Made by a program: the position numbers and the translations under genes. DNA of 64,000 nucleotides from a virus, in IMG/VR virus record IMGVR_UViG_3300032307_000830, positions 1-64,000 of that record; one strand, written 5' to 3'. Below, piece after piece: positions 1 through 44,756 of the stretch (position 1 is the stretch's first letter; every line of letters starts with the position of its first letter). Under the pieces are notes generated by a model. That model did no database searches. It was not told the origin of the DNA and was given only the letters and a program-made list of their open reading frames with translations.

Positions 1-3000
1 GTAACGCTGGTTTATCCAAAACCTCAGGAACAAGTGGATCTTCAGGATCAACAGGTACTGCTGGTACAGACGGTCAATCTGGTTTATCAAAATCTTCTGG
101 TACATCAGGTACATCTGGTTCATCAGGTAGTGACGGTACATCAGGAAGATCTGGGTTCAGCGCTTCTTCAGGTTCATCCGCGACATCAGGTACAAACGGT
201 TCTAACGGTGTTGCTGGTAACAGTGGTGCGAGTGGTGCTTCAGGTTCATCAGGGTCAACAGGTTCTGCTGGTACTTCAGGTATGAGTATGGCTCCAGGTG
301 CCTCAGGCGCTTCAGGAACATCAGGTTCTTCAGGAACAGCTGGTTCTAATGGTAGTTCGGGTAACGCGGGTAACAGTGGCGCTTCAGCTAATTCAGGTTC
401 ATCGGGATCTTCAGGATCAACTGGTGCTAATGGTACAATTGGTAATAGCGGTGTTAGTGGTGGTGCTGGTGCTGCCCCAGGTAGTGGTACTTCAGGTTCT
501 TCAGGATCAACTGGTACAAGTGGTACAACTGGTAACGCTGGTAACTCTGGTTTATCTAAAACTTCTGGTACTTCAGGATCTTCAGGATCAACTGGTACTG
601 CTGGTACAGACGGTCAGTCAGGTTTAAGTAAAGTATCCACAACTTCTGGTACTTCAGGGTCTTCAGGTTCTTCTGGATCAACTGGTACTGCTGGTAATGC
701 TGGTAACAGCGGTTTATCAGCGGTAAGTGGATCTTCAGGATCAACTGGTACTTCAGGTACTACTGGTGCTTCTGGTTTATCAAGATCTTCAGGTACTTCA
801 GGTTCTTCTGGATCTACAGGTACAGCTGGTGCTGATGGTGCCTCTAATCTATCTAAAACTTCTGGTACTTCAGGTTCTTCTGGATCTACAGGTAGTTCAG
901 GTAACGCAGGTAATAGCGGTTTGAGTGCTAATTCTGGTTCTTCAGGGTCTACAGGTACAAGTGGTACAAACGGAGCTGCTGGTAACATAGGTGCTTCAGC
1001 ATTAAGTGGTTCTTCAGGATCAACTGGTACAAATGGTAGCTCAGGTAACGCAGGTAATAACGGTTTAAGTGCTAATTCAGGTTCTTCAGGATCGACTGGT
1101 ACAAATGGTACTGGTGGTGTAGCTGGATTAAATGGTATAAGCGCGGTATCTGGATCTTCAGGTTCATCAGGTACGGCTGGTTTAAGTGGTGCTAACGGTT
1201 CTAACGGTACTTCAGGTGTTAGTGGAAACAGCGGATCAACTGGTTCTAATGGTACTAGTGGTAACAATGGTAACTCTGGTAATTCTGGTCTAAGCGGTGC
1301 TTCTGGATCAACTGGTTCTAACGGTACAAACGGTAATAACGGAAACAATGGTGCTAATGGTCTAAGCGGTGCTTCTGGTTCTTCAGGATCAACTGGTACT
1401 GCTGGTACAAACGGTTTACCTGTACCTTCAGGAACATCAACAGTTTCTGGTTCTTCAGGATCTTCAGGTACAAACGGTACAAACGGAGCCGCTGGTAACA
1501 TAGGTGCTTCAGCGTTAAGTGGGTCATCTGGTTCTTCAGGAACAAATGGTTCTAACGGTGTTGCGGGTAACTCTGGAAACTCTGGCTTAAGCGGTGTATC
1601 TGGTTCTAACGGTACAAACGGTACAAACGGTAACAACGGTGCCGCTGGAAACTCTGGTTTAAGCGGTATATCTGGTTCTAACGGATCTAACGGTACAAAT
1701 GGTGTTGCTGGTAACAACGGTAACTCTGGTTTAAGTGGTGTATCTGGATCTAATGGGTCAAACGGTACAAACGGTAATAACGGGGTTGCTGGAAACAGTG
1801 GTTTATCAGCGGTTAGTGGTTCAAGTGGATCAAATGGTTCAACTGGTACTTCAGGTGTGGCTGGTGGGTCTGGTTTATCTAGAACTTCAGGATTCTCTGG
1901 ATCATCTGGATCTAACGGTACAAATGGTACAAATGGTGTTGGTGGTAACAATGGTAATTCAGGTTTAAGTGGTGTATCTGGGTCTAACGGATCTAATGGT
2001 ACTAACGGTGTTGCTGGTAACAACGGAGCAAGTGGTTTAAGCGGTATATCTGGGTCTAACGGATCTAACGGTACAAATGGTAATAACGGAAACAACGGAG
2101 TAAGTGGTTTAAGCGGTGTATCTGGTTCTAACGGATCTTCAGGTACAAACGGTAACAACGGTGCTGCTGGAAACTCTGGTTTGAGTGCTAATTCTGGTTC
2201 TTCGGGATCATCTGGTACAACTGGTACAAGCGGCCAACCAGGTACGCCTGGTCAATCAAGGGGAGCTGCAACTTCTGGTTCATCTGGTACAAATGGTACT
2301 TCAGGTAACAATGGTGTATCAGGTAACAGCGGTGGTTCTGGTGTATCAGGTGTATCTGGTTCTAACGGTACAAACGGTACAACTGGTAACAACGGTAACA
2401 ACGGTGGTAATGGTGCCTCAGGTTTATCAGGTTCTTCTGGTTCTAACGGTACTCAGGGTACTAACGGTGTATCAAGAATTTCTGGTTTATCTGGTTCATC
2501 TGGTTCAACAGGTACTTCGGGTACTAGTGGCCAAGGTACTAGTGGTATATCTGGTAACGGTACTTCGGGTGTTAACGGTACTTCGGGTACATCGGGTGTA
2601 GCTGGTAATAGTGGTTTGTCAAGAACCTCTGGATCTAACGGTTCGAGTGGTACGTCAGGTAATAGTGGTAACGGTGGTTTATCTGGCCTTTCTAGAACAT
2701 CTGGTACATCTGGTGCTAATGGATCTAATGGTACTTCAGGTGTGGCTGGTACAAGTGGTCAATCTGTTAATGGTACTTCTGGTATCAGCGGTGGATCGTT
2801 CACAAACCAACCTGACTTCTTAGTTAGGACGACAGGTACTGCGACAGTTCAAAGTGTAAGTTTCTTAAAAGCTGACATAACAAATACTAGACTTGGTATC
2901 AACAATAACTCACCTGCATACACATTGGATGTTGGTGGTACTATCTACGCATCTGGTGATGTTATCGCATACTCAGATGAAAGAGTTAAGGAAAATGTTG

Positions 3001-3245
3001 TTACAATTAGTGACGCTTTAAATAAAGTAAGAAGTATGAGAGGTGTTAACTATACAAGAAACGACATTGAAGATAAATCATTGAAAATGGGTGTTATCGC
3101 GCAAGAAGTTCAAAGAGTTGTTCCAGAAGTTATCTCCATAAGAGAGTCTGATGGGCACTTAGCGGTTGCTTACGCAAACTTAGTCGGATTACTTATCGAA
3201 GCGATAAAAGATCTTGACAAAGAGATCCAAGATTTAAAGAAATAA
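1..3245 (+). CDS. Collagen-like phage fibre with C-terminal S74 intramolecular chaperone (5' end outside window)
   Basis: The reading frame is open from base 3, so the gene begins upstream; the internal ATG at 282 is not the real start. About 930 residues are Gly-X-Y triplets in which X and Y are nearly always Ser, Thr, Asn or Ala. Proline is almost absent, which is unusual for a collagen-like protein. Triplets of the type G-L-S followed by A/K/R/V-x-S interrupt the repeat irregularly every 20-35 residues. From about 2800 a non-repetitive stalk leads into a peptidase S74-type chaperone (about 2970-3245): motif SDERVKEN, then GVIAQEVQ, then a terminal helix with LIEAIKDL. In this family the domain trimerises the fibre and cleaves itself off at the Ser of SD. 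It is probably a tail or head fibre. Its many hydroxyl residues make it a candidate glycosylation target. Confidence 0.92.
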   Translation, partial: NAGLSKTSGTSGSSGSTGTAGTDGQSGLSKSSGTSGTSGSSGSDGTSGRSGFSASSGSSATSGTNGSNGVAGNSGASGASGSSGSTGSAGTSGMSMAPGASGASGTSGSSGTAGSNGSSGNAGNSGASANSGSSGSSGSTGANGTIGNSGVSGGAGAAPGSGTSGSSGSTGTSGTTGNAGNSGLSKTSGTSGSSGSTGTAGTDGQSGLSKVSTTSGTSGSSGSSGSTGTAGNAGNSGLSAVSGSSGSTGTSGTTGASGLSRSSGTSGSSGSTGTAGADGASNLSKTSGTSGSSGSTGSSGNAGNSGLSANSGSSGSTGTSGTNGAAGNIGASALSGSSGSTGTNGSSGNAGNNGLSANSGSSGSTGTNGTGGVAGLNGISAVSGSSGSSGTAGLSGANGSNGTSGVSGNSGSTGSNGTSGNNGNSGNSGLSGASGSTGSNGTNGNNGNNGANGLSGASGSSGSTGTAGTNGLPVPSGTSTVSGSSGSSGTNGTNGAAGNIGASALSGSSGSSGTNGSNGVAGNSGNSGLSGVSGSNGTNGTNGNNGAAGNSGLSGISGSNGSNGTNGVAGNNGNSGLSGVSGSNGSNGTNGNNGVAGNSGLSAVSGSSGSNGSTGTSGVAGGSGLSRTSGFSGSSGSNGTNGTNGVGGNNGNSGLSGVSGSNGSNGTNGVAGNNGASGLSGISGSNGSNGTNGNNGNNGVSGLSGVSGSNGSSGTNGNNGAAGNSGLSANSGSSGSSGTTGTSGQPGTPGQSRGAATSGSSGTNGTSGNNGVSGNSGGSGVSGVSGSNGTNGTTGNNGNNGGNGASGLSGSSGSNGTQGTNGVSRISGLSGSSGSTGTSGTSGQGTSGISGNGTSGVNGTSGTSGVAGNSGLSRTSGSNGSSGTSGNSGNGGLSGLSRTSGTSGANGSNGTSGVAGTSGQSVNGTSGISGGSFTNQPDFLVRTTGTATVQSVSFLKADITNTRLGINNNSPAYTLDVGGTIYASGDVIAYSDERVKENVVTISDALNKVRSMRGVNYTRNDIEDKSLKMGVIAQEVQRVVPEVISIRESDGHLAVAYANLVGLLIEAIKDLDKEIQDLKK

Positions 3246-3254
3246 TAAATAAGA

Positions 3255-3278
3255 AAGGGGCCTAAGGCCCCTTTTTTT
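3255..3278. terminator. Bidirectional rho-independent terminator
   Basis: Stem GGGGCC (3257-3262), loop TAA, stem GGCCCC (3266-3271). A T-run follows on the + strand and an A-rich flank gives U-rich RNA on the - strand. It sits between the convergent fibre and peptidase genes and can serve both. Confidence 0.9.
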
Positions 3279-4110
3279 ATTTTCTCAAACCGTTAAGAGA
3301 TTTTAAAGCTCTTTCTCTAACCTTTTCTTTATCGATTTTGACGTTTTCATCAACAAATGGATACTTTATATTACCCAGGGATGAAATCATCTCTAAAGCG
3401 ATATTTCGGGCTTGTTGTGCGTAGCTAATACTAACATATTCTCTGGATGAGTGCATGTTGTAGTAGCCAACGGAGTAATTTATACAAGAAAAATCATAAA
3501 AAGCCCCTAAAATACTAACATCGGTATATGGGTGTCTACCTAATGTATAATCACCCATGTAATCTTCTAGTATTGGTTGGATTGTTTTATAAAAATCACC
3601 ATTTTCGTCAAATAATTTAACTCCATTACAGTAATGGGTTACCCAGTCGTTTTCAGGGGCGTCAAATTGCAGGGCATAACCAACATTTTCGAAGAAAACT
3701 TCATCGGCTAGTGTTGAACCAAAACAACCATACTCCTCAGATACGAAAAAAACCGCTTTTAAGACCTCTACGCGCTCAAGTAACTCCAAACATACATAAA
3801 CACCCGCCTTATTATCCCCACCGCATCCAGTGGGCTTATTTGTACCCTTTTCAACGGCATATATAATATCTTCTTTATCTGGGTGATGTAAGATATCCAT
3901 ATCGACTATTCTATGCACAGAATCTGTATGCGCCACAACACATGGATAATACTCAGCGACACCTTTTGTTACATAGATATTACCGTGCTCATCTATAACA
4001 TAATCTAAATTACATTCGTTAAGATATTTTGTTATTTTCGCTATAAGATACTGCTCTTGTCCACAATAAGTTGGTGTTGAGAGGATATCTTTTAATTTTT
4101 CTTTACTCAT
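3277..4110 (-). CDS. M20/M28-type zinc peptidase
   Basis: The 277-residue protein has the full set of metal and catalytic positions of the M20/M28/M42 aminopeptidase clan: His61-Thr-Asp63, the bridging Asp99 in GGDNKAG, Glu125-Glu126 in the SEEYG motif, Asp150 and His220 in MHSSREY. It is shorter than peptidase T (about 400 residues) and appears to lack a separate dimerisation domain. No signal peptide is seen, so it would act in the cytoplasm. It overlaps the next upstream gene (glucosaminidase) by 8 bp, which suggests co-transcription. The substrate is unknown; di- or tripeptides or a cell-wall peptide are possible. Such peptidases are uncommon in phages. Confidence 0.85.
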   Translation of the reverse strand: MSKEKLKDILSTPTYCGQEQYLIAKITKYLNECNLDYVIDEHGNIYVTKGVAEYYPCVVAHTDSVHRIVDMDILHHPDKEDIIYAVEKGTNKPTGCGGDNKAGVYVCLELLERVEVLKAVFFVSEEYGCFGSTLADEVFFENVGYALQFDAPENDWVTHYCNGVKLFDENGDFYKTIQPILEDYMGDYTLGRHPYTDVSILGAFYDFSCINYSVGYYNMHSSREYVSISYAQQARNIALEMISSLGNIKYPFVDENVKIDKEKVRERALKSLNGLRK

Positions 4111-4672
4111 TAAAATATGATTTTAATTTTTGTTTATCCACGATGTTTTTAATTGTTTGTGCGTAGGTGGGTGCTTCCGCGTAATGTGCTGAAAGAAACA
4201 AATAGTATTTTTCTTCAGTATTAATGTTATTTAAATAAGTGGACTGGAAAAAACCCATGTCGACTATACAATCTTGCCACTTTTTATAATAGGCAAAGCT
4301 ATTCTTTGAGCCTGAACACGTTGTCATCCTACTTTTAGCTTCCCTCATCCCAAATAAATTATTATTTGATTTGAATAGACCACTCCTACCTAAACCGCTT
4401 TCAACAATAGCTTGCGCCATAACAATGTGTGGGAATTTTATTCCGTTATTTTTAAGTTCGTCAACAAATTTATCTTTAGAAAACTTGTCTCTTTCCTTTT
4501 GTAGATTTATTATACGAACCTTACCCTCTATCGTGTCTAGAGTATCTGATTGAAAATACCTACCAATAAAAAAGGAACCAACCATTAGTAAAATGGTGGT
4601 TCCCAACGCTATTTTAACACTTAATTTGTCTTTGACAAATTTTAGTTGATCGCTATCGTATCTGTAAAACAT
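4103..4672 (-). CDS. Membrane-anchored glucosaminidase-domain protein (candidate lysin)
   Basis: ATG at 4672 is chosen over the GTG at 4678, because the GTG lies inside a leader hairpin. The 189-residue protein has a short charged N-terminus, one membrane segment (about residues 20-39) and then a glucosaminidase (PF01832-type) domain. The catalytic Glu is in AQAIVESGLG (about residue 91), followed by NNNLFGM. Known members cleave the N-acetylglucosaminyl bond in peptidoglycan. The topology suggests a signal-anchor enzyme acting in the periplasm, either as the lysis enzyme or for wall remodelling. A promoter-like box and hairpin lie directly upstream. Confidence 0.87.
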   Translation of the reverse strand: MFYRYDSDQLKFVKDKLSVKIALGTTILLMVGSFFIGRYFQSDTLDTIEGKVRIINLQKERDKFSKDKFVDELKNNGIKFPHIVMAQAIVESGLGRSGLFKSNNNLFGMREAKSRMTTCSGSKNSFAYYKKWQDCIVDMGFFQSTYLNNINTEEKYYLFLSAHYAEAPTYAQTIKNIVDKQKLKSYFNE

Positions 4673-4674
4673 TA

Positions 4675-4696
4675 CCACTACTTATTATCGTAGTGG
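4675..4696 (-). promoter_or_regulatory. 5' leader hairpin directly before the start codon
   Basis: On the - strand CCACTAC pairs with GTAGTGG around an 8-base loop GATAATAA. The hairpin lies between the TATATTTG box and the ATG of the glucosaminidase gene and would be at the very 5' end of the mRNA. There is no T-run, so it is not a normal terminator; a role in mRNA stability or translation is possible. Confidence 0.6.
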
Positions 4697-4705: not shown

Positions 4706-5941
4706 TTAAAAATATTTACCGAAAAAAGTTTTTTTCTCTTTTTTACCGATAATCGATTCAATACCATCAATAACCATCTCTGGCGTTATGGTTTTTGTAC
4801 ATTCAAAATGTCTTGGTGTATCCTTGTGCTCTGGGCACCATTCCCAATCACCTGGGTTTAACCAATGTCTATTAAAACAACCATTACAAGTTTTATCTGG
4901 TTCTGGTGTGAATATTCTAACACAATCCTCAAATTCAGATAATGGGTAGCTAAATCCTGAAATTAATACAGTTGGTGTACCAATCGCCCATGACATCCAA
5001 CTCAAACCACTACCCAAACCAATAAACATTTCAGCATTTTTGATGTCAATCATTCTATCAGTCAAAGCTATGTGGCCACCAGTTTTATCGATTACACCCT
5101 TAAGTGTACCACCAAGTTTTGAGTCGTGCCAATTATCACCTAATTTTTCCGATGTTATCATCACAACTTTATATCCACGATCATTTAAGTAATCCACAAC
5201 TGTTTGCCAACCACCTGGATAGTTCCAGTATTTAGCGTGTGCAGATGCATGTGGTGCGATAATAACATATTTATCATCAAATCTACTTGGCTCATTAGGG
5301 ACGTCCATTTTAGGTTTAACCTCAGAATGTTCTAACCCTAAAATCACGCTACTAGTTTTTTGTAGTGGATGTTCTTTAAAATCGATTGGTATTCTACTCT
5401 TAACGACTTCTTTATTATCATAAAACCAACCAATGGTGTACATTGCGTATAGATCTGGTACGGGTGTACCTGGTTTAATAAACTCTAACTCTGGATACAA
5501 ACCCTCAAACCATTCGTTATGGAACGTTGATACCGCAACCTTACAATTATGTTTTTTTCTAAACTCTTCCGCAAATGGGAACCAAGCTAGCGTATCACCA
5601 ACAGCACTACTGTCTAAATGAATGTAAACTTTTTTACCAGTCGCATCGTAATTGTGTTCAAAAACTAATTCATTACTTTCAACATCATAAACCTTAACCC
5701 CCCACTCAACAAAATATTGTATAGAGCTTTTGGTCCACATGTTATTTGTTATTTCAGTGATATGGTGCACATCACCAGTTTTATTATCCATGAACACCAC
5801 ACGGTATTTTTTAGATAAAGGCCCTTTTATCTCACAAAAAACGCCGTTAATGAAATGTACAATAAATGAATTAGAGGGTTCTTTATAATCCCTAGATAAA
5901 ATTTCAGTGTTATTGTATTCGTTAATTAATGTTTCCTTCAT
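4706..5941 (-). CDS. GT9 glycosyltransferase resembling autotransporter O-heptosyltransferases (TibC/BAHT type)
   Basis: Residues 100-400 form a GT9 heptosyltransferase fold: GDTLAW (115-120), the nucleotide-sugar region APHASAHAKYWNYPGG (229-244) and IGLGSGLSWMSW (307-318). The small N-terminal domain and the C-terminal four-cysteine cluster (Cys352, 355, 369, 381; C-x2-C-x13-C-x11-C) are hallmarks of the bacterial autotransporter heptosyltransferase family. Members carry an iron ion and add heptose from ADP-heptose to Ser residues of repetitive beta-helix proteins. That subfamily assignment rests on pattern recognition only. It overlaps the carbamoyltransferase gene by 20 bp, so the two are coupled. 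The Ser-rich collagen-like fibre nearby is a possible acceptor. Confidence 0.85.
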   Translation of the reverse strand: MKETLINEYNNTEILSRDYKEPSNSFIVHFINGVFCEIKGPLSKKYRVVFMDNKTGDVHHITEITNNMWTKSSIQYFVEWGVKVYDVESNELVFEHNYDATGKKVYIHLDSSAVGDTLAWFPFAEEFRKKHNCKVAVSTFHNEWFEGLYPELEFIKPGTPVPDLYAMYTIGWFYDNKEVVKSRIPIDFKEHPLQKTSSVILGLEHSEVKPKMDVPNEPSRFDDKYVIIAPHASAHAKYWNYPGGWQTVVDYLNDRGYKVVMITSEKLGDNWHDSKLGGTLKGVIDKTGGHIALTDRMIDIKNAEMFIGLGSGLSWMSWAIGTPTVLISGFSYPLSEFEDCVRIFTPEPDKTCNGCFNRHWLNPGDWEWCPEHKDTPRHFECTKTITPEMVIDGIESIIGKKEKKTFFGKYF

Positions 5942-7550
5942 ATTTCTTATATATAAAATTATTTATTATTAATAGATCAACAACATCGTTTTCTAGATGC
6001 GTAAACGCCTCGTCTGGGTGGCAAACAATTGGTTCTTCATGTACGTTAAACGATGTGTTCAATAAAACAGGTACACCCGTTATTTTATTATATTCGTCCA
6101 ATATCTTATGGAATGTTGGGTTTGACTTTGGTGTAACTATTTGTATTCTAGCCGTTTTATCTTTAGGGTGCACAACCGTTGGTATCTTATCAGACCACTC
6201 TGGTCTTGTATCATACAACATGGTCATAAATTGAGCTGTGTAAGCCGATTTATCAACTTTAAAGACTGTATTCGCGTGCTCTTCCATAACAGCTGGTGCA
6301 AATGGCATAAAGTCATTTCTTTGCAATTTGTTATTGATTTTATCATATGTTTCTGGGTTAGTTACTTCACCGATAATACTTCTATTACCCAGAGCCCTTG
6401 GCCCGTGTTCGTATCTACCATTAAATACACCGATAATCTTACCGTTAGCTAAGTACTTAGCAGCTTTTTCTGGTGTGAAAAGTTCTCTACTAAACTTATT
6501 AACATCCCAATATTGATCACCAACTTCATCATCGGTGTATGACGTACCCATAAAAACATCGTTTAGTTTAAACGGTTTAAATTCTGGGTTAAAAGTCTTG
6601 TGTACTACTAAAGCACAACCAAGTGCACAACCTTCATCACCCATTGGGGGTGTAACAAAGGCTTCGTTAACCCAGTATTGCTCATTAATTCGTTTATTTA
6701 ACTTAACATTCGCGAAAACACCACCAGCTAAAGCTATTTTTTTAACATCTGGGTATTGGTTATGTAAGTTTGTTAACAACTGAACAATCTTCTCCTCAAA
6801 AACTAATTGACCGTTATACGCTAAATCTTGTTTTGACCCAAGGTAAACCTTGGAGCCAATTCTTTTATAAAAAGAGGTGTAAAAATCTAAATAAACTTGC
6901 CCGAATAAAACACCCGAATCATCTTTATCGGTGTGAATACCCTCTATTTTTATAGCATCATTAAATGATTGGTATGCTACTAATTCATGCTTACCATGCC
7001 CAGCCATACCAACGACTTTACCCTCATCTTTTAGTCGTTTAAAACCCAAGAATTCGGTTAACATCGCATAATAGTGACCAAATGATTTATTTTTAAGACC
7101 AAGACCGTCAATAAAACTTAAATTACCGTTACTACCGATAAAATATTTTGCGCTATATTTACCACCACTAGCATCCATAGTCACGACTAAAGTATCTTCC
7201 TCAAAACCACTTAAATAATAAGCTGTTGCGGCGTGAGAATCATGGTGATCAACAAAAATAAATTTATGTTCTGGGAAAGGTAAACCAGTTTCTAATGTAT
7301 CCCATATTATTTTAACCTCATTTTTGGGGTAATAACTAGTTATGTAATCAATATCATTGATATTAAACCCTAGTTTATCTGTGGCATCCCTTAAACTAAA
7401 ATACGGGCATCTAAACACGTCTGAATAAAAATCTTTATAAACTTTTATCCTATTATGTCTCTCTTCTTCCAAAGAGAAAATAATTTTACCGTTATCTATT
7501 AAAGTAATACCACAACAATGACCACCAGCTGATATACCTAATATTTTCAT
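5922..7550 (-). CDS. O-carbamoyltransferase (NodU/TobZ family)
   Basis: The 542-residue protein has the two-part layout of the family. The N-terminal ASKHA/Kae1-like domain starts with ILGISAGGHCCG and carries the metal-binding DHHDSHAATAY around residue 100. The C-terminal domain has EHGPRALGNRSI and LNTSFNVHEEP. Known members transfer a carbamoyl group from carbamoyl phosphate to a sugar hydroxyl through carbamoyl-AMP. It sits between a GT9 and a GT4 gene, overlapping both (20 bp and 4 bp), so the acceptor is probably the glycan made by the neighbouring transferases. Length is normal and nothing is missing. Confidence 0.93.
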   Translation of the reverse strand: MKILGISAGGHCCGITLIDNGKIIFSLEEERHNRIKVYKDFYSDVFRCPYFSLRDATDKLGFNINDIDYITSYYPKNEVKIIWDTLETGLPFPEHKFIFVDHHDSHAATAYYLSGFEEDTLVVTMDASGGKYSAKYFIGSNGNLSFIDGLGLKNKSFGHYYAMLTEFLGFKRLKDEGKVVGMAGHGKHELVAYQSFNDAIKIEGIHTDKDDSGVLFGQVYLDFYTSFYKRIGSKVYLGSKQDLAYNGQLVFEEKIVQLLTNLHNQYPDVKKIALAGGVFANVKLNKRINEQYWVNEAFVTPPMGDEGCALGCALVVHKTFNPEFKPFKLNDVFMGTSYTDDEVGDQYWDVNKFSRELFTPEKAAKYLANGKIIGVFNGRYEHGPRALGNRSIIGEVTNPETYDKINNKLQRNDFMPFAPAVMEEHANTVFKVDKSAYTAQFMTMLYDTRPEWSDKIPTVVHPKDKTARIQIVTPKSNPTFHKILDEYNKITGVPVLLNTSFNVHEEPIVCHPDEAFTHLENDVVDLLIINNFIYKKYEGNIN

Positions 7551-8494
7551 TTACTATATTCTTTGAATAATTCCGCTAATTCCGTTGATCTATTATACCA
7601 CGATAAACTCTCAGCGTGGGCAATAGCTCTATTTCTATAAACTTCGTAATTATTTGTTATATCGTCTAAACCACGCACTAACTCAACGACATTTCTAGGC
7701 GCTCTCCACATACCATTAAAATCCGTCTCCATTTCAATCCAACCATTTACAGGTAAACCACAAGCCGCGGCCTCTAATATAGTTAAATTTGGGTGGCCAG
7801 CTTCTAGTTCAGATGGGTGCATAAAAATTGTGTGCCTATGATAAAGATTAACAAGTTCTTCTTGATTGGGTTCCCACTCCAAATTTAATTTTGGGTAACC
7901 AAAAACCCATGGGTTCTCGTTTAAGAAATTTTCATTATTTCTAGGCCCTGCTATTGTGATTGGTAAATTCCTAGCCATGGCAGCTTTAATTGCAAAACCA
8001 AAACCTTTTCTATCATAACCATTCATACCAGCCAAACCGTTATTAGCTAAACACAATAACCTATGTTCTTTAGGCGGGTTTTTAGCTGGGGTGAAAAAAT
8101 CCGTATTAACGCCATGCGAAAAATATACCGCTTTGGGTGTATCGAAATACGGTACCAAAAATTTACCAGGCATCAGTGAAACCAATGAATTTTCAATAGC
8201 TTTTAGATTTTCTTTAAAAACAAATGAGTTTTTACCGTAGTAAAAAGCATGGTGATCATGTAGCTGGTAAATGTAAGGTATATTCCTTTCGTGTAGGAAA
8301 TGACACAGATTGGCCATGTGTACATGTACGATATCATATTCACCTGGTTGGATCTCATTTGCGTACTTAATATCAACCTCGTGACCTAATAATCTTAAAT
8401 TTTGTGTGAATTCCCACACGATTTTTTCGACAGCACCCCAATTAGGTGGTGGTACTGGTATCCCGCATCCAGGATGTACTTGACATATTTTCAT
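7547..8494 (-). CDS. GT4-family glycosyltransferase
   Basis: The 315-residue GT-B protein starts with CQVHPGCGIPVPPPNWGAVE, the Gly-rich start of a GT4 acceptor domain. The C-terminal donor half contains SELEAGHPNLTILEAAACG, the E-x7-E signature that binds the nucleotide-sugar. It is slightly short for the family (usually 350-400). It overlaps the carbamoyltransferase by 4 bp and lies 9 bp downstream of the three-domain transferase, so it belongs to the same operon. Sugar donor and acceptor cannot be told from sequence. Confidence 0.9.
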   Translation of the reverse strand: MKICQVHPGCGIPVPPPNWGAVEKIVWEFTQNLRLLGHEVDIKYANEIQPGEYDIVHVHMANLCHFLHERNIPYIYQLHDHHAFYYGKNSFVFKENLKAIENSLVSLMPGKFLVPYFDTPKAVYFSHGVNTDFFTPAKNPPKEHRLLCLANNGLAGMNGYDRKGFGFAIKAAMARNLPITIAGPRNNENFLNENPWVFGYPKLNLEWEPNQEELVNLYHRHTIFMHPSELEAGHPNLTILEAAACGLPVNGWIEMETDFNGMWRAPRNVVELVRGLDDITNNYEVYRNRAIAHAESLSWYNRSTELAELFKEYSK

Positions 8495-8503
8495 AATGAA
8501 TTT

Positions 8504-11254
8504 TTAATTTGCGAATATGGCCGCAACATCGTTATCTTTATTTTTATCTTTTTTATCGACAATTGAATAACCAGGTAGGTGTTTTGTATAAACTTTGGTT
8601 GACATCGCACCGTGTAATCCAGCTACTTTAGTCATCCATAAATCAAACGCATCCCATTTACAAGTTTCAAACTTCTCAACAAAAGTAGGTAATTTTTCTC
8701 TATTAATCAAGTAAGATTGTGCTGGTGCGAAGATACTTAGGTTTAATAATAAATCTTCTCTTTGACCCTCATATCTTTCAGCAACATAGTTACCAAAACC
8801 AACCATATCAACATTTTCTTCCTTAGCCAATTGAGACCATCTGATCAAATTATCGTATAGTTCCTGATATGGACTATCAATGATAACGTCACCTTCAAAA
8901 ACAAGTACAAAATCGTATTTATCATTATCTGGTAATGTGATACCATTTTTATGTGCCAAGAAACAACCATAATGGCCTGGAGACAATTTAAAATATCCTG
9001 GTTCTGGCGCAACATCGTGAGGTCTGTTACAAGTATCAGCTGGTGGTAGATCTTTGTAGATTACGTTAACTTGCTCGTAGTACTCAACGTTATCAAAATT
9101 ACTAGCGAAGTCTTTTAATGAAAAAGCTGATCTAAGTTCTTTTTGATTCGTTGTTGGTTCTGTTACCAAGTGAACAATTCTAATCTTAGGTTTACCATCA
9201 TTTTCACCTTTTAATAAATCCACAGTATTAATATCACCATTATATGTGAACATACCGTTATTTGGTAATTTTGTTGTTAAATAATCATTATCAACTTCAA
9301 TTGATTTATACTCAATAAATTGTTTGGTGTCTTTATCGAAAGAAGAGTACTCGATAAGATATTTAGCATCTTCACTCAAATCAAAATTAACAATGCGGTA
9401 CCAAGCACCTTTACCTGTAACGGTTAATTGTTCTTCGTGTAATAAAGAATCGTTTTTGTTAATTTTTATATTAATAATACGGCTATCTATTGAATTTGAG
9501 ACCTGGAAATACGTGACAAATGTATTTGGTATGTTGCTAGGTAATAAAGTAAAATATTCTACCCTAGAATAGTCCCTATGGTGAAAATTTGTTGCGATTT
9601 CTGTCTTAAAAATCTCTTCACCAACTAATTCGATCTCATTTAACTTATCTTTAAACGCGAAATACATTAAATTTTCATAACCATTGCTATGGGAACCCCA
9701 TTTATGTCTTAAATTTTCATAATCATCCGCGTTAAAAACTCGATCTACATTATTCAAGTAAAACTCTGGTTTAATACCCATAAAGAATGTTGTGACAGAA
9801 TGGCCTTCAGCATTATTAGGCATATCACCAAAATACGCTGATTTTTTATTCAACACACTTGAGATGTTATCTAAATACGCGTCATTTTTTAACACGTAAT
9901 CGTAATTAAGGAAATAAACTTTTTCAAAACCCAGTTCATGAGCTAAAGCGGCACCGTTATAGTAGTTTGTATAGCAAGTTGGTCCGTGATAAACATCATT
10001 ACCTTCACCCCTTAAATTAACAAATGCGAAAAAATCGCCTTCACCGTATCTACTTTGGGAGTAAAAGGTGTGTTTTGTTAAAATATTGTTTTTATCGTAA
10101 ATACAATAATCAACTAGATTTTGTAAATCTGGTGAAATAGGTAAATGTGATGTTAAAATAACTTTTCTACCTGTTTTTTTTGCAGCTAAAATACACTCAA
10201 CAGTGGTATCAAAAGAACTTTTTGTTGTTGGGTAAGTTGATATGATCACAGCCTCATTCGATCTGTTAATATCCAATGCTGTATTTACTTCATAACCCGA
10301 TTCAAGTGTATTTTTAATTATTTCACAGTTTTTGTTAAAATCTGTGAAGTCCAAGTAATTAACATTATCGAATTTATCAAAATAGTTTAAATAAACATTT
10401 AAATTGTAAATTAAAATAGGTAAATTCCATGAAATTGCTTCACGAATAACTAATGGCATTGTTTCTTTATCGTTATCCGTTCCTCTAGAAGTAAATAGGA
10501 ATAAATCCATAGCCTGATAGAATCTATCCACATCTTTTCTTTCACCGTGCCAAACAACATTACTTGGTTTATCAATCATGAGCGGTTCCCAGTAATGGGC
10601 GAAGTTACCCGCTTGATTTCCAACTGAATGGAAAACATATTCTGGTAAAGATTTAGCGTATTCGAAAAATTCTTTCTGATTTTTTCTTGGTGTGAATAAA
10701 CCTACGTGTAAAACATGTTTCTTACTAGGATCTAAACCAAGATCTTTCAAAGCATCTTCTCTATTTGGCCTTTGTTTATATTCAATAGGGTACTCAACTA
10801 AAACTTTTGGGATATCGATTGATTCGTATTGTTTGATTTGCCAATTTGACACAAACATGAATTTATCTGGGAAGAATTTTTTTTGTGTTGCATCGTATGA
10901 TGAATCATGTGACGTTTCAACAATTATATAACCCCTATCTTTTTTATAGAGTTCCTTTGCAACATCAAAATCCATAAAATACTCTGGGATTTCTTCTAAA
11001 TGGACAATATCAGGAGAAATATTATTAATAATATTAATTAATTCCATTTTATTTTCCTCTAGAGTAAAGAATTTATCTCTAGCAACCATAGAAGTTATTT
11101 TATCGCGCTGTACGACAAGAACACCACCAGTGTGATTCGACCATTCAACTACGTAGATATCAAAAGTATCCCTAAGTAATTCAATTTTTTTGGTTAAATA
11201 TTGTGGTAAGCCACCTGTGGATAAATGCGGTGCTACATAAAGTAATTTTTTCAT
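8504..11254 (-). CDS. Three-domain glycosyltransferase (GT4, GT-A-like, GT25)
   Basis: The 916-residue protein looks like a fusion. Residues 1-310 are a GT4 unit (LHVGLFTPRKN at 182-192; DNDKETMPLVIREA at 260-273). Residues 330-560 look like a second transferase domain of GT-A type (IISTYPTTKSSFDTTVECI), less certain. Residues 570-680 may be a beta-sandwich linker. Residues 690-900 match GT25 LPS-type transferases: LSPGHYGCFLAHKNGI (757-772), then VFEGDV (785-790), where EGD replaces the usual EDD. It is first in its operon and probably adds two or three sugars in sequence. The unusual acidic motif may change or weaken the GT25 activity. Confidence 0.85.
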   Translation of the reverse strand: MKKLLYVAPHLSTGGLPQYLTKKIELLRDTFDIYVVEWSNHTGGVLVVQRDKITSMVARDKFFTLEENKMELINIINNISPDIVHLEEIPEYFMDFDVAKELYKKDRGYIIVETSHDSSYDATQKKFFPDKFMFVSNWQIKQYESIDIPKVLVEYPIEYKQRPNREDALKDLGLDPSKKHVLHVGLFTPRKNQKEFFEYAKSLPEYVFHSVGNQAGNFAHYWEPLMIDKPSNVVWHGERKDVDRFYQAMDLFLFTSRGTDNDKETMPLVIREAISWNLPILIYNLNVYLNYFDKFDNVNYLDFTDFNKNCEIIKNTLESGYEVNTALDINRSNEAVIISTYPTTKSSFDTTVECILAAKKTGRKVILTSHLPISPDLQNLVDYCIYDKNNILTKHTFYSQSRYGEGDFFAFVNLRGEGNDVYHGPTCYTNYYNGAALAHELGFEKVYFLNYDYVLKNDAYLDNISSVLNKKSAYFGDMPNNAEGHSVTTFFMGIKPEFYLNNVDRVFNADDYENLRHKWGSHSNGYENLMYFAFKDKLNEIELVGEEIFKTEIATNFHHRDYSRVEYFTLLPSNIPNTFVTYFQVSNSIDSRIINIKINKNDSLLHEEQLTVTGKGAWYRIVNFDLSEDAKYLIEYSSFDKDTKQFIEYKSIEVDNDYLTTKLPNNGMFTYNGDINTVDLLKGENDGKPKIRIVHLVTEPTTNQKELRSAFSLKDFASNFDNVEYYEQVNVIYKDLPPADTCNRPHDVAPEPGYFKLSPGHYGCFLAHKNGITLPDNDKYDFVLVFEGDVIIDSPYQELYDNLIRWSQLAKEENVDMVGFGNYVAERYEGQREDLLLNLSIFAPAQSYLINREKLPTFVEKFETCKWDAFDLWMTKVAGLHGAMSTKVYTKHLPGYSIVDKKDKNKDNDVAAIFAN

Positions 11255-11357: not shown

Positions 11358-12938
11358 TTATCTTAAACCAGTGATACCGAAGCTAACGATATTTTTACAC
11401 TTGATTACACCATAGAAACGGTTGTTAACCATTTTCTTAGCGTAACGAGTCATAATACCCTTAACTGGTGCAAAGGTGAATGGGTTGTACATTGTAGGAG
11501 TTAATTGCATTGGCACGTATGGTGCGTAGATGTAACCTGTATCCAACAAAGATGTACCTTTGTGACCCATCAAGATTGTATCAGCTGGGAAGTAAGGATC
11601 ACGGTAAACTTGGTATCTTCCACCCAATGAACCGATTCTCTCGATACCCATGTTATATTTGTCTTGCTCAGGAGCAGCGTTAGATACGTGGAAGTATTCT
11701 AAGTCGTCCAAGATAGCAGAAACTTCAGCAGAAACTACGATCCAGTTAGCACCACCTCTTAAGGTAGCTTTGTGGATTTGTGCAGAAACTTGGTTGATCG
11801 CAGTGATCAAAGTTTGGTTCCATTCTTTTTGAGTATAGAAACCGTTTGTTGCAGATAAACCACCTGTGTTAACTCTTGAACCAGAGTAATCCCAAGTCAT
11901 TCTCCATGCAGCACCTCTACGTAAGTCACGTAAAATTTCACGGTCAATCTCAGCAGCAACTTGCTCAGACAATAAAGCTGTCAATTCAGCTTCTGCATCA
12001 ATGTTATGGAACGCTGATACGTCTTGAGCTAATTCTGGAGACCATTGAGCTCTTAACTTTCTTTCGATAACAGAAACTGTTACAGACTTAAGTTCGAAGC
12101 TAACTTCACCCATTTGATCATTGTACTCTAAAGATTCGTATTCTTTAGCTGTTACTGTTAAACCAGTTAATGGTAATGCCACAGAAGAACTGTTGTTAAC
12201 AACAGCGATGTAAACAACACCTTGTGAATCCATGATTGAGTTACCATATTTTTGAGCTGGTAAATAGAAATCGAAATCAGCGTTAGCTGTAGCTGAAGTG
12301 ATTGCCAAAGTAGACATAACTTCTTCAGCATTTTCCCAGTTGCTAATAGTTGCAGCGAAGTCAACTTTAATGATTTCTGTTGAACCTGTTGGAATTGAAG
12401 TACCAGATTTAGTAGCGTAACCACTTGCTGCTGATGAACTAAACTGGAATAAGCTAGATGTAGTTGTTGAACCTGTTAATACAGCAGCTTCACCTTTAGA
12501 AGTGTCATAAAGACCGTTTTCGCCATAGAAAGCGTCATAAAGGTTAGGGCTAACTGAAGTACCAGCTGGGTCAATACCAGCAGCTCCTGAAGCAAATGCT
12601 GAATTTTCCAATTTAGGTACGAAGTAGAACAATTTACCAATAGGTAAGTTCAACGCTTGTACTGAAACGATTTCGTTAGCTAATAATTTAGAGAATACTC
12701 TTCTCACGATTGGGAATACCACAGTTTCGAAAGAACCTTCGTTACCTAAAGCAACTGATTCATTAAGCATGTAAGATGCTTGGTTTTCGAATAATTGTGC
12801 GATATTCTCTTTTCTGTGACCACCTAAGCCTTCTAAAAGACCTAAGCTATCCCATCTGTTAATTACGTCAGTACGTACAGCTTTCAAGTGATTTAAGCTT
12901 ACGTTACCAACTTTTCCTGATTCTAATAATGCTCCCAT
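11358..12938 (-). CDS. Major capsid protein, T4 gp23-like
   Basis: The 526-residue protein matches gp23 in length and order. The N-terminal propeptide ends in MLNE60|S61, close to the T4 cleavage at 65/66 and fitting the gp21 rule of hydrophobic-x-Glu. It is followed by FPIVRRVFSKLLANEIVSVQ, then the HK97-type core with SPELAQDVSAFHNIDAEAEL and EIDREILRDLRRGA. A Ser/Thr-rich stretch (about residues 150-190) may be a surface-exposed insertion. It lies directly after the gp22-like scaffold gene, as in T4. A strong terminator follows. Confidence 0.96.
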   Translation of the reverse strand: MGALLESGKVGNVSLNHLKAVRTDVINRWDSLGLLEGLGGHRKENIAQLFENQASYMLNESVALGNEGSFETVVFPIVRRVFSKLLANEIVSVQALNLPIGKLFYFVPKLENSAFASGAAGIDPAGTSVSPNLYDAFYGENGLYDTSKGEAAVLTGSTTTSSLFQFSSSAASGYATKSGTSIPTGSTEIIKVDFAATISNWENAEEVMSTLAITSATANADFDFYLPAQKYGNSIMDSQGVVYIAVVNNSSSVALPLTGLTVTAKEYESLEYNDQMGEVSFELKSVTVSVIERKLRAQWSPELAQDVSAFHNIDAEAELTALLSEQVAAEIDREILRDLRRGAAWRMTWDYSGSRVNTGGLSATNGFYTQKEWNQTLITAINQVSAQIHKATLRGGANWIVVSAEVSAILDDLEYFHVSNAAPEQDKYNMGIERIGSLGGRYQVYRDPYFPADTILMGHKGTSLLDTGYIYAPYVPMQLTPTMYNPFTFAPVKGIMTRYAKKMVNNRFYGVIKCKNIVSFGITGLR

Positions 12939-43126: not shown

Positions 43127-43876
43127 TTATTTTGGAACAACGACCCCTCGCCTACTTACAACATCTGAAGCCATTAAATTACCAAAATCAATAGACTTTG
43201 CAATATCCGTAGTTTCGAAATATTTTAATATAAAGGCAGATGTGAATGTATCCCCAGCACCACTAACATCAATCGTGTCTCTAGGGTTTTTTGATGGATA
43301 AACAATGCCGTCAAACTCAGCCCCATGTTTACCTAAAGTGGTGATTATGTTTAATCCCTCAATATCGGATTTATTCTGTGAGTCTCGTTCACTTTTATTT
43401 AATTTAATAAAATCAAACTGCTTAAATATGTTTGACATCTTTCTTTTACTATCCAAGATAGATATTTTGCTATAATAGGCTATTTTTGATATTACCTCAT
43501 CACTCAAAAAACCTTTGTTATAGTCACTAACAATGACAATATCGGATAAAAGTATCTTATTGATGATGGATTCTGTTAATACAAGCGGTGTTATGTAACC
43601 TTCACCCTCATCAACTCTAACAATCATTTGATTACTTTTTTCATCAACAAATCTTGTTTTGGTTATTTCAGTTTCTTGTGTGATAAAATTTATTTCGCAA
43701 GTATTATTAATAGCTTTAAGGTTCTCAACAACATTACCAGCCATACCAGGATTTTCAACAACCCTAAATGGGTTTAATACAGGTACGGGTGCTTCTGGAC
43801 AAAGTCTTGTAACGTCACCATAAATAAATTTGTCAGTACACATTTCACCGATAACGGTCACTAATATCTTATCCAT
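43127..43876 (-). CDS. PfkB sugar kinase resembling the HldE heptose-7-phosphate kinase domain
   Basis: ATG at 43876 (MDKILVTVIG) is preferred: the longer frame to 43918 would begin inside the upstream terminator. The 249-residue protein matches the kinase half of HldE/RfaE: YGDVTRLCPEAPVPVLNP, NPGMAGNVVENL (42-53), ITKTRFVDEKSNQMIVRVD, IVSDYNKGFL and the catalytic DVSGAGDT (203-210). HldE-type kinases make heptose-1,7-bisphosphate on the path to ADP-heptose; the adenylyltransferase half is absent here. This links it to the GT9 heptosyltransferase-like gene at 4706-5941. Other PfkB substrates cannot be excluded. Confidence 0.85.
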   Translation of the reverse strand: MDKILVTVIGEMCTDKFIYGDVTRLCPEAPVPVLNPFRVVENPGMAGNVVENLKAINNTCEINFITQETEITKTRFVDEKSNQMIVRVDEGEGYITPLVLTESIINKILLSDIVIVSDYNKGFLSDEVISKIAYYSKISILDSKRKMSNIFKQFDFIKLNKSERDSQNKSDIEGLNIITTLGKHGAEFDGIVYPSKNPRDTIDVSGAGDTFTSAFILKYFETTDIAKSIDFGNLMASDVVSRRGVVVPK

Positions 43877-43880
43877 ATCA

Positions 43881-43888
43881 CAAATATA
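43881..43888 (-). promoter_or_regulatory. TATATTTG promoter-like box, leaderless arrangement
   Basis: The - strand reads TTTTGTATATTTGTGATATGG. The box ends only 4 nt before the kinase ATG, so transcription would start at or just before the start codon. It directly follows the terminator of the preceding gene. Confidence 0.5.
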
Positions 43889-43895
43889 CAAAAAA

Positions 43896-43919
43896 AATGA
43901 GGGTAAACAAACCCTCATT
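43896..43919 (-). terminator. Rho-independent terminator
   Basis: AATGAGGGT pairs with ACCCTCATT around a 6-base loop, followed on the - strand by T8. It ends the transcript of the 64-residue protein gene at 43946-44140. Confidence 0.92.
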
Positions 43920-43945
43920 ATTAAAAAATTTTATAGTAGTTAGTA

Positions 43946-44140
43946 TTATTTTTCTACTTCATTAACGATTTCGTCAAATTTACCAGATTTAGCGGCCTCA
44001 ACAAAATCAGCAAATTGATTTTTTGTCCAAGTTGTTATACCTTCTGGTCCGTTCTTATCACCTAAAACAATTGCGTCTGATTGAACCTCAATTACTGGAC
44101 AGCACTTATTTTTACAAAATTTAATTACGTTGTTTTCCAT
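43946..44140 (-). CDS. Small DUF397-like protein (tentative)
   Basis: The 64 residues contain CCPVIEVQSDAIVLGDKNGPEG and a C-terminal TKNQFADFVEAAKSGKFD. This beta-turn-helix outline is strikingly like DUF397 proteins of actinobacteria (D-K-x-P, then W/F-x-x-F...G-x-FD), although homology over such a short length cannot be shown by eye. Three Cys cluster near the N-terminus. It is the last gene of its transcript. Confidence 0.7.
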   Translation of the reverse strand: MENNVIKFCKNKCCPVIEVQSDAIVLGDKNGPEGITTWTKNQFADFVEAAKSGKFDEIVNEVEK

Positions 44141-44144
44141 TTTT

Positions 44145-44756
44145 TTATTTCTTTGTTGTTTTGTTATTATTTTCTTTTAAAACATTCAATTTACCACCAA
44201 ATACTTTATCACCGATTTTTATTTGGAAATTCTCATCGATGCTAGTTTTCTTAGCTTGTTCCTCAAGAACTGCCTCAACAGTTTTTTTAATGATGTACTC
44301 AATTAATTGTACATCCATTACTGGTTGTTGTGTTGGCTCTTGTTGTCTCTGAGTTGGTTTATCATATTGTTGTACAACTTCTTGAATTTGTTTCATTTTA
44401 GGTTGTGCCTGGGCAACTTTCTCCATCAAACTATCCATACCAACTGGGACCGTTGGATCCACAATTGGGTTTTCGATAAAGGATTGTAATATTTCCTTAG
44501 GCATTTTAGATGTGCTTAAATTTTTCATAGTATTTTTAGGTGCGTTACCGCCAGCTGCTCTAGTTCTAGCAACCATGTCAGCTTCACTAAGATATTCTGG
44601 TTCACGTTCTGGTGCATCATCAGAATACATAGCTCTGTTTATTTGTGGTTGTTGACTCATACTAGTTCCACCAGTATTAGCTTCAACCTTTTGCATTACC
44701 TGTCTAGCTTTGGCGATACCTTGTGCCAATATACTTGCTTTGTCTTGGTTATCCAT
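44145..44756 (-). CDS. Unknown protein, Gln-rich middle
   Basis: The 203 residues have no recognised fold. They show an N-terminal helix (KASILAQGIAKARQVMQKVE), a disordered Gln/Pro stretch around 130-145 and a C-terminal helix plus strand with LKENNNKTTKK. It overlaps the WYL-like gene by 8 bp. It could be a minor head protein or a transcript-binding adaptor; neither is supported directly. Confidence 0.78.
   Translation of the reverse strand: MDNQDKASILAQGIAKARQVMQKVEANTGGTSMSQQPQINRAMYSDDAPEREPEYLSEADMVARTRAAGGNAPKNTMKNLSTSKMPKEILQSFIENPIVDPTVPVGMDSLMEKVAQAQPKMKQIQEVVQQYDKPTQRQQEPTQQPVMDVQLIEYIIKKTVEAVLEEQAKKTSIDENFQIKIGDKVFGGKLNVLKENNNKTTKK

Follow-up and report, generated by a model that had tools for sequence, protein, structure and literature searches.

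The window analysed here is a 64,000-nucleotide stretch of viral DNA, positions 1 to 64,000 of the IMG/VR record IMGVR_UViG_3300032307_000830. The source, an aquatic phage, is T4-like, as shown by its genes for portal protein, terminase, tail sheath and a DNA polymerase. Near its start, a gene at 4706–5941 encodes a 411-residue member of the TibC family of protein O-heptosyltransferases, enzymes of the type with which E. coli adds heptose to adhesins, and this member has a new class of partner, a collagen-like fibre built of Gly-X-Y repeats. The enzyme, its cysteine cluster and the fibre lie as follows:

4706–5941, minus strand: TibC-type (BAHT-like) predicted O-heptosyltransferase, 411 residues (TIGR04414; PDB 4rap/4rb4; AlphaFold2 model)
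4799–4888, minus strand: four-cysteine iron-finger segment (C352, C355, C369, C381), aligned with C339, C342, C358 and C370 of TibC
1–3245, plus strand: Ser/Thr/Asn-rich Gly-X-Y fibre with a C-terminal S74 chaperone domain (Collagen E 2e-88; Peptidase_S74 E 1e-13)

An earlier note on this DNA, made from the sequence alone, had called the 411-residue protein a BAHT/TibC-type enzyme, and a profile search bears this out: the protein scores 310.3 bits against TIGR04414 (hepto_Aah_TibC; cut-off 200, E 1.7e-92), whereas profiles of lipopolysaccharide (LPS) heptosyltransferases reach 20.9–33.6 bits, with RfaQ at 33.6, against cut-offs of 170–467. By sequence, TibC is its sole relative of solved structure (4rap/4rb4, E 6e-52), with the cysteines and catalytic residues in register. 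The AlphaFold2 model (predicted local distance difference test score 92.9) tells the same story. Its residues 23–404 superpose on residues 21–393 of TibC over 364 residues with Z 41 and a root-mean-square deviation (rmsd) of 2.7, a match over the whole chain, whereas WaaF and WaaC reach Z 18–19 and align with the catalytic domain only. Because the model aligns with TibC from residue 23 onwards, the N-terminal beta-barrel is present together with the GT-B core; the N-terminal domain anticipated from the sequence is thus found in the model, though Pfam TibC_1st gives E 0.026, below the family cut-off. On profile and fold we rejected modification of the LPS core by an ordinary WaaC/WaaF-like enzyme.

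The cluster C352-x2-C355-x13-C369-x11-C381 has exactly the spacing read earlier. Across 118 distinct viral homologues, its four cysteines and the equivalents of TibC D110, K230 and W305 never vary, which argues that the cluster is not a chance occurrence. In TibC, D110 is the catalytic base, K230, W305, R286 and T226 make the sugar contacts, and the cysteines form the iron finger (PMC4358343). The window counterparts of D110, K230, W305, R286 and T226 are D116, K237, W315, R296 and Ser233, the last a conservative change; the position of T226 is Ser or Thr in all 118 viral domains, and that of R286 is Arg in 98 of them. From these residues, the protein is predicted to bind iron and to use ADP-heptose as donor; a dodecamer ring is a further feature of the TibC/AAH family. 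Among the flanking genes (fibre, peptidase, lysozyme, glycosyltransferases and capsid) there is no type V autotransporter, and we therefore file the protein under the TibC family rather than as an autotransporter-modifying enzyme.

The fibre frame is open from base 3 to base 3245, its N-terminal side cut by the start of the contig. Its Gly-X-Y part, 885 residues long, holds 244 Ser, 94 Thr and 111 Asn but only 6 Pro. By its Collagen and S74 domains, the collagen-like fibre described in the earlier note is real, but it is not an immediate neighbour of the enzyme gene: the two are convergent, on opposite strands, and separated by the peptidase-like and lysozyme-like genes at 3277–4678. At two other loci (L174 and L178), Ser and Thr make up 96–97% of the X and Y positions of stalks more than 1000 residues long, which adjoin divergent TibC-like proteins that are fused to GT4 or arranged in tandem.

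Relatives of the TibC-like protein are encoded on 327 IMG/VR stretches. Fibre linkage is kept across related phages: where at least 12 kb of context was available, a Ser/Thr-rich Gly-X-Y open reading frame (ORF) occurs in 49 of 58 non-redundant viral loci, and in 44 it lies within 5 kb. The association also appears in searches not anchored on the enzyme. When we started from fibres with an S74 tip, a TibC-like gene was nearby in 18 of 21 loci with a Ser/Thr-rich Gly-X-Y stalk and in 0 of 40 loci whose stalk has Ser/Thr-poor Gly-X-Y repeats or none, even with the whole records of these 40 searched (Fisher 1e-12, uncorrected for relatedness). When we started instead from DNA patterns in IMG/VR, TIGR04414 matched in 23 of 50 records found by a Ser/Thr-Gly-X-Y pattern (17 of the 21 that are at least 60 kb long) versus 1 of 50 found by a Gly-Pro-X pattern (Fisher 1e-7); that single record contains both repeats and matches the Ser/Thr pattern as well. 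The fibre lies within 4.3 kb of the enzyme in 14 of 20 pattern-found loci that were fetched. The pattern scans, which ended at 120 stretches, are samples and not censuses. The Ser/Thr pattern used fixed Thr codons, so its sample favours G-T-[ST] repeats, and 11 of the 50 Gly-Pro-X records may have matched by chance, since the part fetched contains no Gly-X-Y ORF.

The same pairing occurs in bacterial chromosomes. A scan of bacterial genomes for TibC-like genes returned 16 loci. Two of these (L454 and L455; Winogradskyella, Flavobacteriales) look like phage contigs carrying the same cassette as the window, a hint that the hosts of close relatives are Bacteroidota. On nine proteobacterial chromosomes, from Methylobacter, Methylomicrobium, two Methylococcaceae metagenome-assembled genomes (MAGs), a Polaromonas MAG and four other gammaproteobacterial MAGs (loci L456, L457, L459, L460, L461, L464, L465, L466 and L467), the enzyme adjoins a short secreted protein or lipoprotein made of GTSG repeats. 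These repeat proteins look like uncharacterised surface glycoproteins. No such repeat protein is encoded in 304 kb of background sequence from these genomes (20 stretches picked arbitrarily) or at 28 short loci of LPS heptosyltransferases. In contrast to the 23 of 50 pattern-found records, 2 of 369 genomes of the bacterial class of Methylobacter pass the TIGR04414 cut-off. In a tree that included few classical members, the chromosomal proteins cluster with those of the phages and away from TibC, a Schwartzia homologue and a single phage protein. In phages and bacteria alike, the enzyme is thus statistically linked to Gly-X-Y proteins rich in Ser and Thr.

Two side observations belong to these loci. 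In three Methylococcaceae, a gap of about 100 bp or less separates the TibC-like gene from the GTSG-repeat gene upstream of it. The phage protein that groups with TibC and the Schwartzia homologue (L470/L409) comes from record G111, which also holds a very long Ser/Thr-rich Gly-X-Y fibre.

The enzyme gene is the last in a minus-strand cassette that follows the gp23-type capsid gene. Together with the remaining neighbours, its other members are:

11358–12938, minus strand: gp23-type major capsid protein, a rival acceptor whose gene directly precedes the cassette (PF07068, 249 bits)
8504–11254, minus strand: multidomain glycosyltransferase, 916 residues, a conserved cassette member (Glycos_transf_1 E 9e-12; Glyco_transf_25 E 0.02)
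7547–8494, minus strand: GT4 glycosyltransferase, 315 residues, kept directly upstream of the TibC-like gene in relatives (Pfam Glycos_transf_1)
5922–7550, minus strand: NodU/NolO-type carbamoyltransferase, 542 residues (Carbam_trans_C 200 bits; Carbam_trans_N 119 bits; phrog_1601 E 3e-94)
4103–4678, minus strand: glucosaminidase/Bax-type lysozyme, between cassette and fibre in the window clade only (PF01832, 68 bits)
3277–4110, minus strand: M20/M42-like peptidase, between cassette and fibre in the window clade only (phrog_4191 E 1.5e-38)

These further cassette genes and the bacterial pairing go beyond what the earlier note described. The last three genes of the cassette have overlapping ends: GT4 and carbamoyltransferase share 4 bp, and carbamoyltransferase and the TibC-like gene share 20 bp. 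Both Pfam domains of the carbamoyltransferase exceed their cut-offs, and its score against the NodU equivalog profile is 143 bits, below the 1000 required. The 916-residue protein consists of a GT4 domain (residues 1–325), a second domain, a beta-sandwich and a GT25-like C-terminal domain, with no family assigned to the middle domains. The top Foldseek match of its model is the human collagen galactosyltransferase COLGALT1 (PDB 9evj; E 5.5e-12, 10% identity, rmsd 22 across domains), but the match is weak because the domains are differently placed and the two arrangements do not superpose. Neither profile nor single-sequence comparison linked the two proteins, and VIA-align returned only GT-B enzymes, covering residues 1–325 alone. 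The likeness to COLGALT1 is suggestive, a lead only.

In the window clade, the gene order is gp23, cassette, lysozyme, peptidase and then the convergent fibre; in most other relatives, fibre, GT4/25, GT4, TibC-like gene and tail sheath follow one another on one strand. Because the structural neighbour switches between gp23 and tail sheath, the Gly-X-Y fibre is the neighbour kept in both orders. The carbamoyltransferase is missing from most fibre-first loci, and in relatives its slot can hold FkbM or another methyltransferase, separate or fused.

Among isolates, the closest capsid proteins are those of Microcystis phage Mel-JY01 and Flavobacterium phage immuto. In Mel-JY01, a GTSG fibre lies just upstream of a 1227-residue fusion that ends in a TibC-like domain, a combination found in no other named isolate; immuto, the nearest isolate without the enzyme, shows no Gly-X-Y ORF either over the 150 kb of its 160 kb that were scanned. 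In the 735-kb phage LR756501, fibre, GT4/25 homologue and enzyme are consecutive, and LR756504 has no Ser/Thr-rich Gly-X-Y ORF within 12 kb. As for annotation, the 805-residue GTSG-repeat ORF of Mel-JY01 (PP395634.1, 635–3052, plus strand) is entered as a hypothetical coding sequence on the opposite strand (739–2298, minus), and its GT4/TibC-like fusion is entered as 'methyltransferase FkbM'.

Taken together, these data lead us to propose, with a probability of roughly 0.77, that this TibC-family O-glycosyltransferase acts in the cytoplasm of the infected cell on the phage's own collagen-like fibre, most likely attaching heptose from host ADP-heptose. That a phage might glycosylate its own fibre had been suggested from the sequence; the linkage in phages and bacteria supports the idea, while the acceptor, the modification itself, heptose as its sugar, the order of steps and the purpose are what we infer. 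From the biochemistry of TibC (PMC4358343), heptose would be transferred in the cytoplasm from host ADP-heptose to many Ser and Thr residues of the Gly-X-Y stalk. Asp116 would act as the base, and the four-cysteine iron finger would serve in assembly and substrate contact, as it does when TibC acts on autotransporters. The GT4 and GT4/GT25-like enzymes would extend the sugar and the carbamoyltransferase would cap the glycan, a step that a methyltransferase may take over in relatives. Such a glycan would probably shield the Pro-poor triple helix, which has no hydroxyproline, and make it more stable; it may also tune adsorption. Sugar on Thr or Ser could take over the stabilising part of hydroxyproline here, as it does in annelid cuticle collagens.

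Several observations weigh against this proposal. The fetched context of 9 of the 58 viral loci contains no Ser/Thr-rich Gly-X-Y fibre, and 27 of the 50 Ser/Thr-Gly-X-Y records have no TibC-like gene; many of these are short, yet it is also missing from 4 of the 21 records of at least 60 kb. The linkage counts are uncorrected for phylogeny, and database fragments, sampling limits and shared descent affect them. The stereoselectivity residue of TibC, P300, is Gly in the window protein and in 100 of 118 viral domains, and the recorded host of Mel-JY01 is a cyanobacterium, a group not typically associated with heptose. In the phages we found no complete set of ADP-heptose genes, so the donor probably comes from the host; many Bacteroidota make ADP-heptose. 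Among 21 large phage records, gmhA gave one match and hldE domain I six, all below cut-off and never together in one record; hldE domain II reached the cut-off in none of 24 overlapping records, and Mel-JY01 contains neither gmhA nor hldE domain I. We rejected a phage-supplied donor since the searched records hold no complete gene set. The phage records G097 (64359–64814) and G093 (43710–44648) hold a gmhA-like or an hldE-domain-I-like gene in addition to the TibC-like gene, a possible partial supply of ADP-heptose.

It is the sugar on which the strongest competing explanation turns, namely that the same fibre-directed enzyme uses an ADP- or NDP-sugar other than ADP-heptose. The frequent Gly at P300, the sub-threshold gmhA and hldE matches and the cyanobacterial host of Mel-JY01 all favour it, as does loss of the adenine-contacting Arg (TibC R286) in 20 of 118 viral domains. 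The window protein, however, keeps Arg296, Lys237, Trp315 and Asp116 and lies far above the cut-off of an equivalog profile, and the apparent hosts of its close relatives are Bacteroidota. We consider a different donor unlikely but worth keeping in mind, and heptose as the sugar is less certain than O-glycosylation of the fibre. Much less probable is a different virion protein as acceptor, gp23 in the window clade and tail sheath or tube elsewhere. The cassette does directly follow gp23 in the former and directly precede the sheath or tube gene in most relatives, but that neighbour changes with gene order while both orders have the Ser/Thr-rich Gly-X-Y fibre, and the chromosomal homologues adjoin Gly-X-Y proteins. 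We rejected gp23 itself as acceptor, its neighbourhood not being kept across relatives.

The cassette could instead alter host LPS and so block superinfection, a role already put forward for glycosyltransferases encoded close to phage tail fibres (PMC7029224): GT9 enzymes are best known as LPS heptosyltransferases, and phage glycosyltransferases are often interpreted in this way. The best profile and fold are nonetheless those of TibC, including an N-terminal domain that LPS heptosyltransferases lack, and the linkage tracks the composition of the fibre rather than fibres in general, so that we regard this explanation as very improbable. We give equally little credence to the idea that the linkage reflects shared descent only, from one aquatic T4-like lineage that happened to carry both genes. 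Many of the loci are indeed related and the counts carry no phylogenetic correction; yet the pairing is seen in both gene orders and in several fused architectures, it is present in 735-kb phages and Mel-JY01, it recurs in chromosomes of Methylococcaceae and other gammaproteobacteria, and S74 relatives without Ser/Thr-rich Gly-X-Y stalks are also without the gene.

If glycosylation of the fibre is correct, dense sugar coats would be expected on the fibres of many aquatic phages, which would change how their adsorption, host range and virion stability are viewed, and the TibC family would gain a second class of substrate. How almost Pro-free, Ser/Thr-rich stalks form a stable triple helix is a question that glycosylation could answer. 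More tentatively, at somewhat less than even odds, a whole branch of the TibC family, in bacteria as well as phages, may be dedicated to Ser/Thr-rich Gly-X-Y proteins; their stalks would be O-heptosylated, extended and capped with carbamoyl or methyl groups, and sugar would replace hydroxyproline as stabiliser of the triple helix. The papers covered by our search, which took in few subscription journals, treat phage glycosyltransferases encoded beside tail fibres as modifiers of O-antigen or DNA, and we found none that connects a TibC-type enzyme with a phage or with collagen-like proteins.

The Gly-X-Y proteins of Bacillus (BclA) and the collagen of mimivirus are modified by dedicated glycosyltransferases, which are of the rhamnosyl or hydroxylysine-glucosyl type and not of the TibC type. 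Phage-encoded glycosyltransferases act on their own virions in the capsids and tails of mycobacteriophages and in T5-like tail fibres, with other enzyme families and acceptors. The LPS heptosyltransferases WaaC, WaaF and WaaQ share the GT9 catalytic domain with the window enzyme but have neither its N-terminal barrel nor an iron finger. The closest system is that of TibC and AAH (TIGR04414; 4rap, 4rb4; PMC4358343), with which the window enzyme shares the profile, the fold of the whole chain, the catalytic Asp, Lys and Trp and the four iron-finger cysteines, while differing from TibC in having Gly at the position of P300 and Ser at that of T226. Unlike TibC and AAH, it is encoded by a phage, its cassette also comprises GT4, GT4/GT25-like and carbamoyltransferase genes, and its partner is a Gly-X-Y fibre rather than a beta-helical autotransporter.
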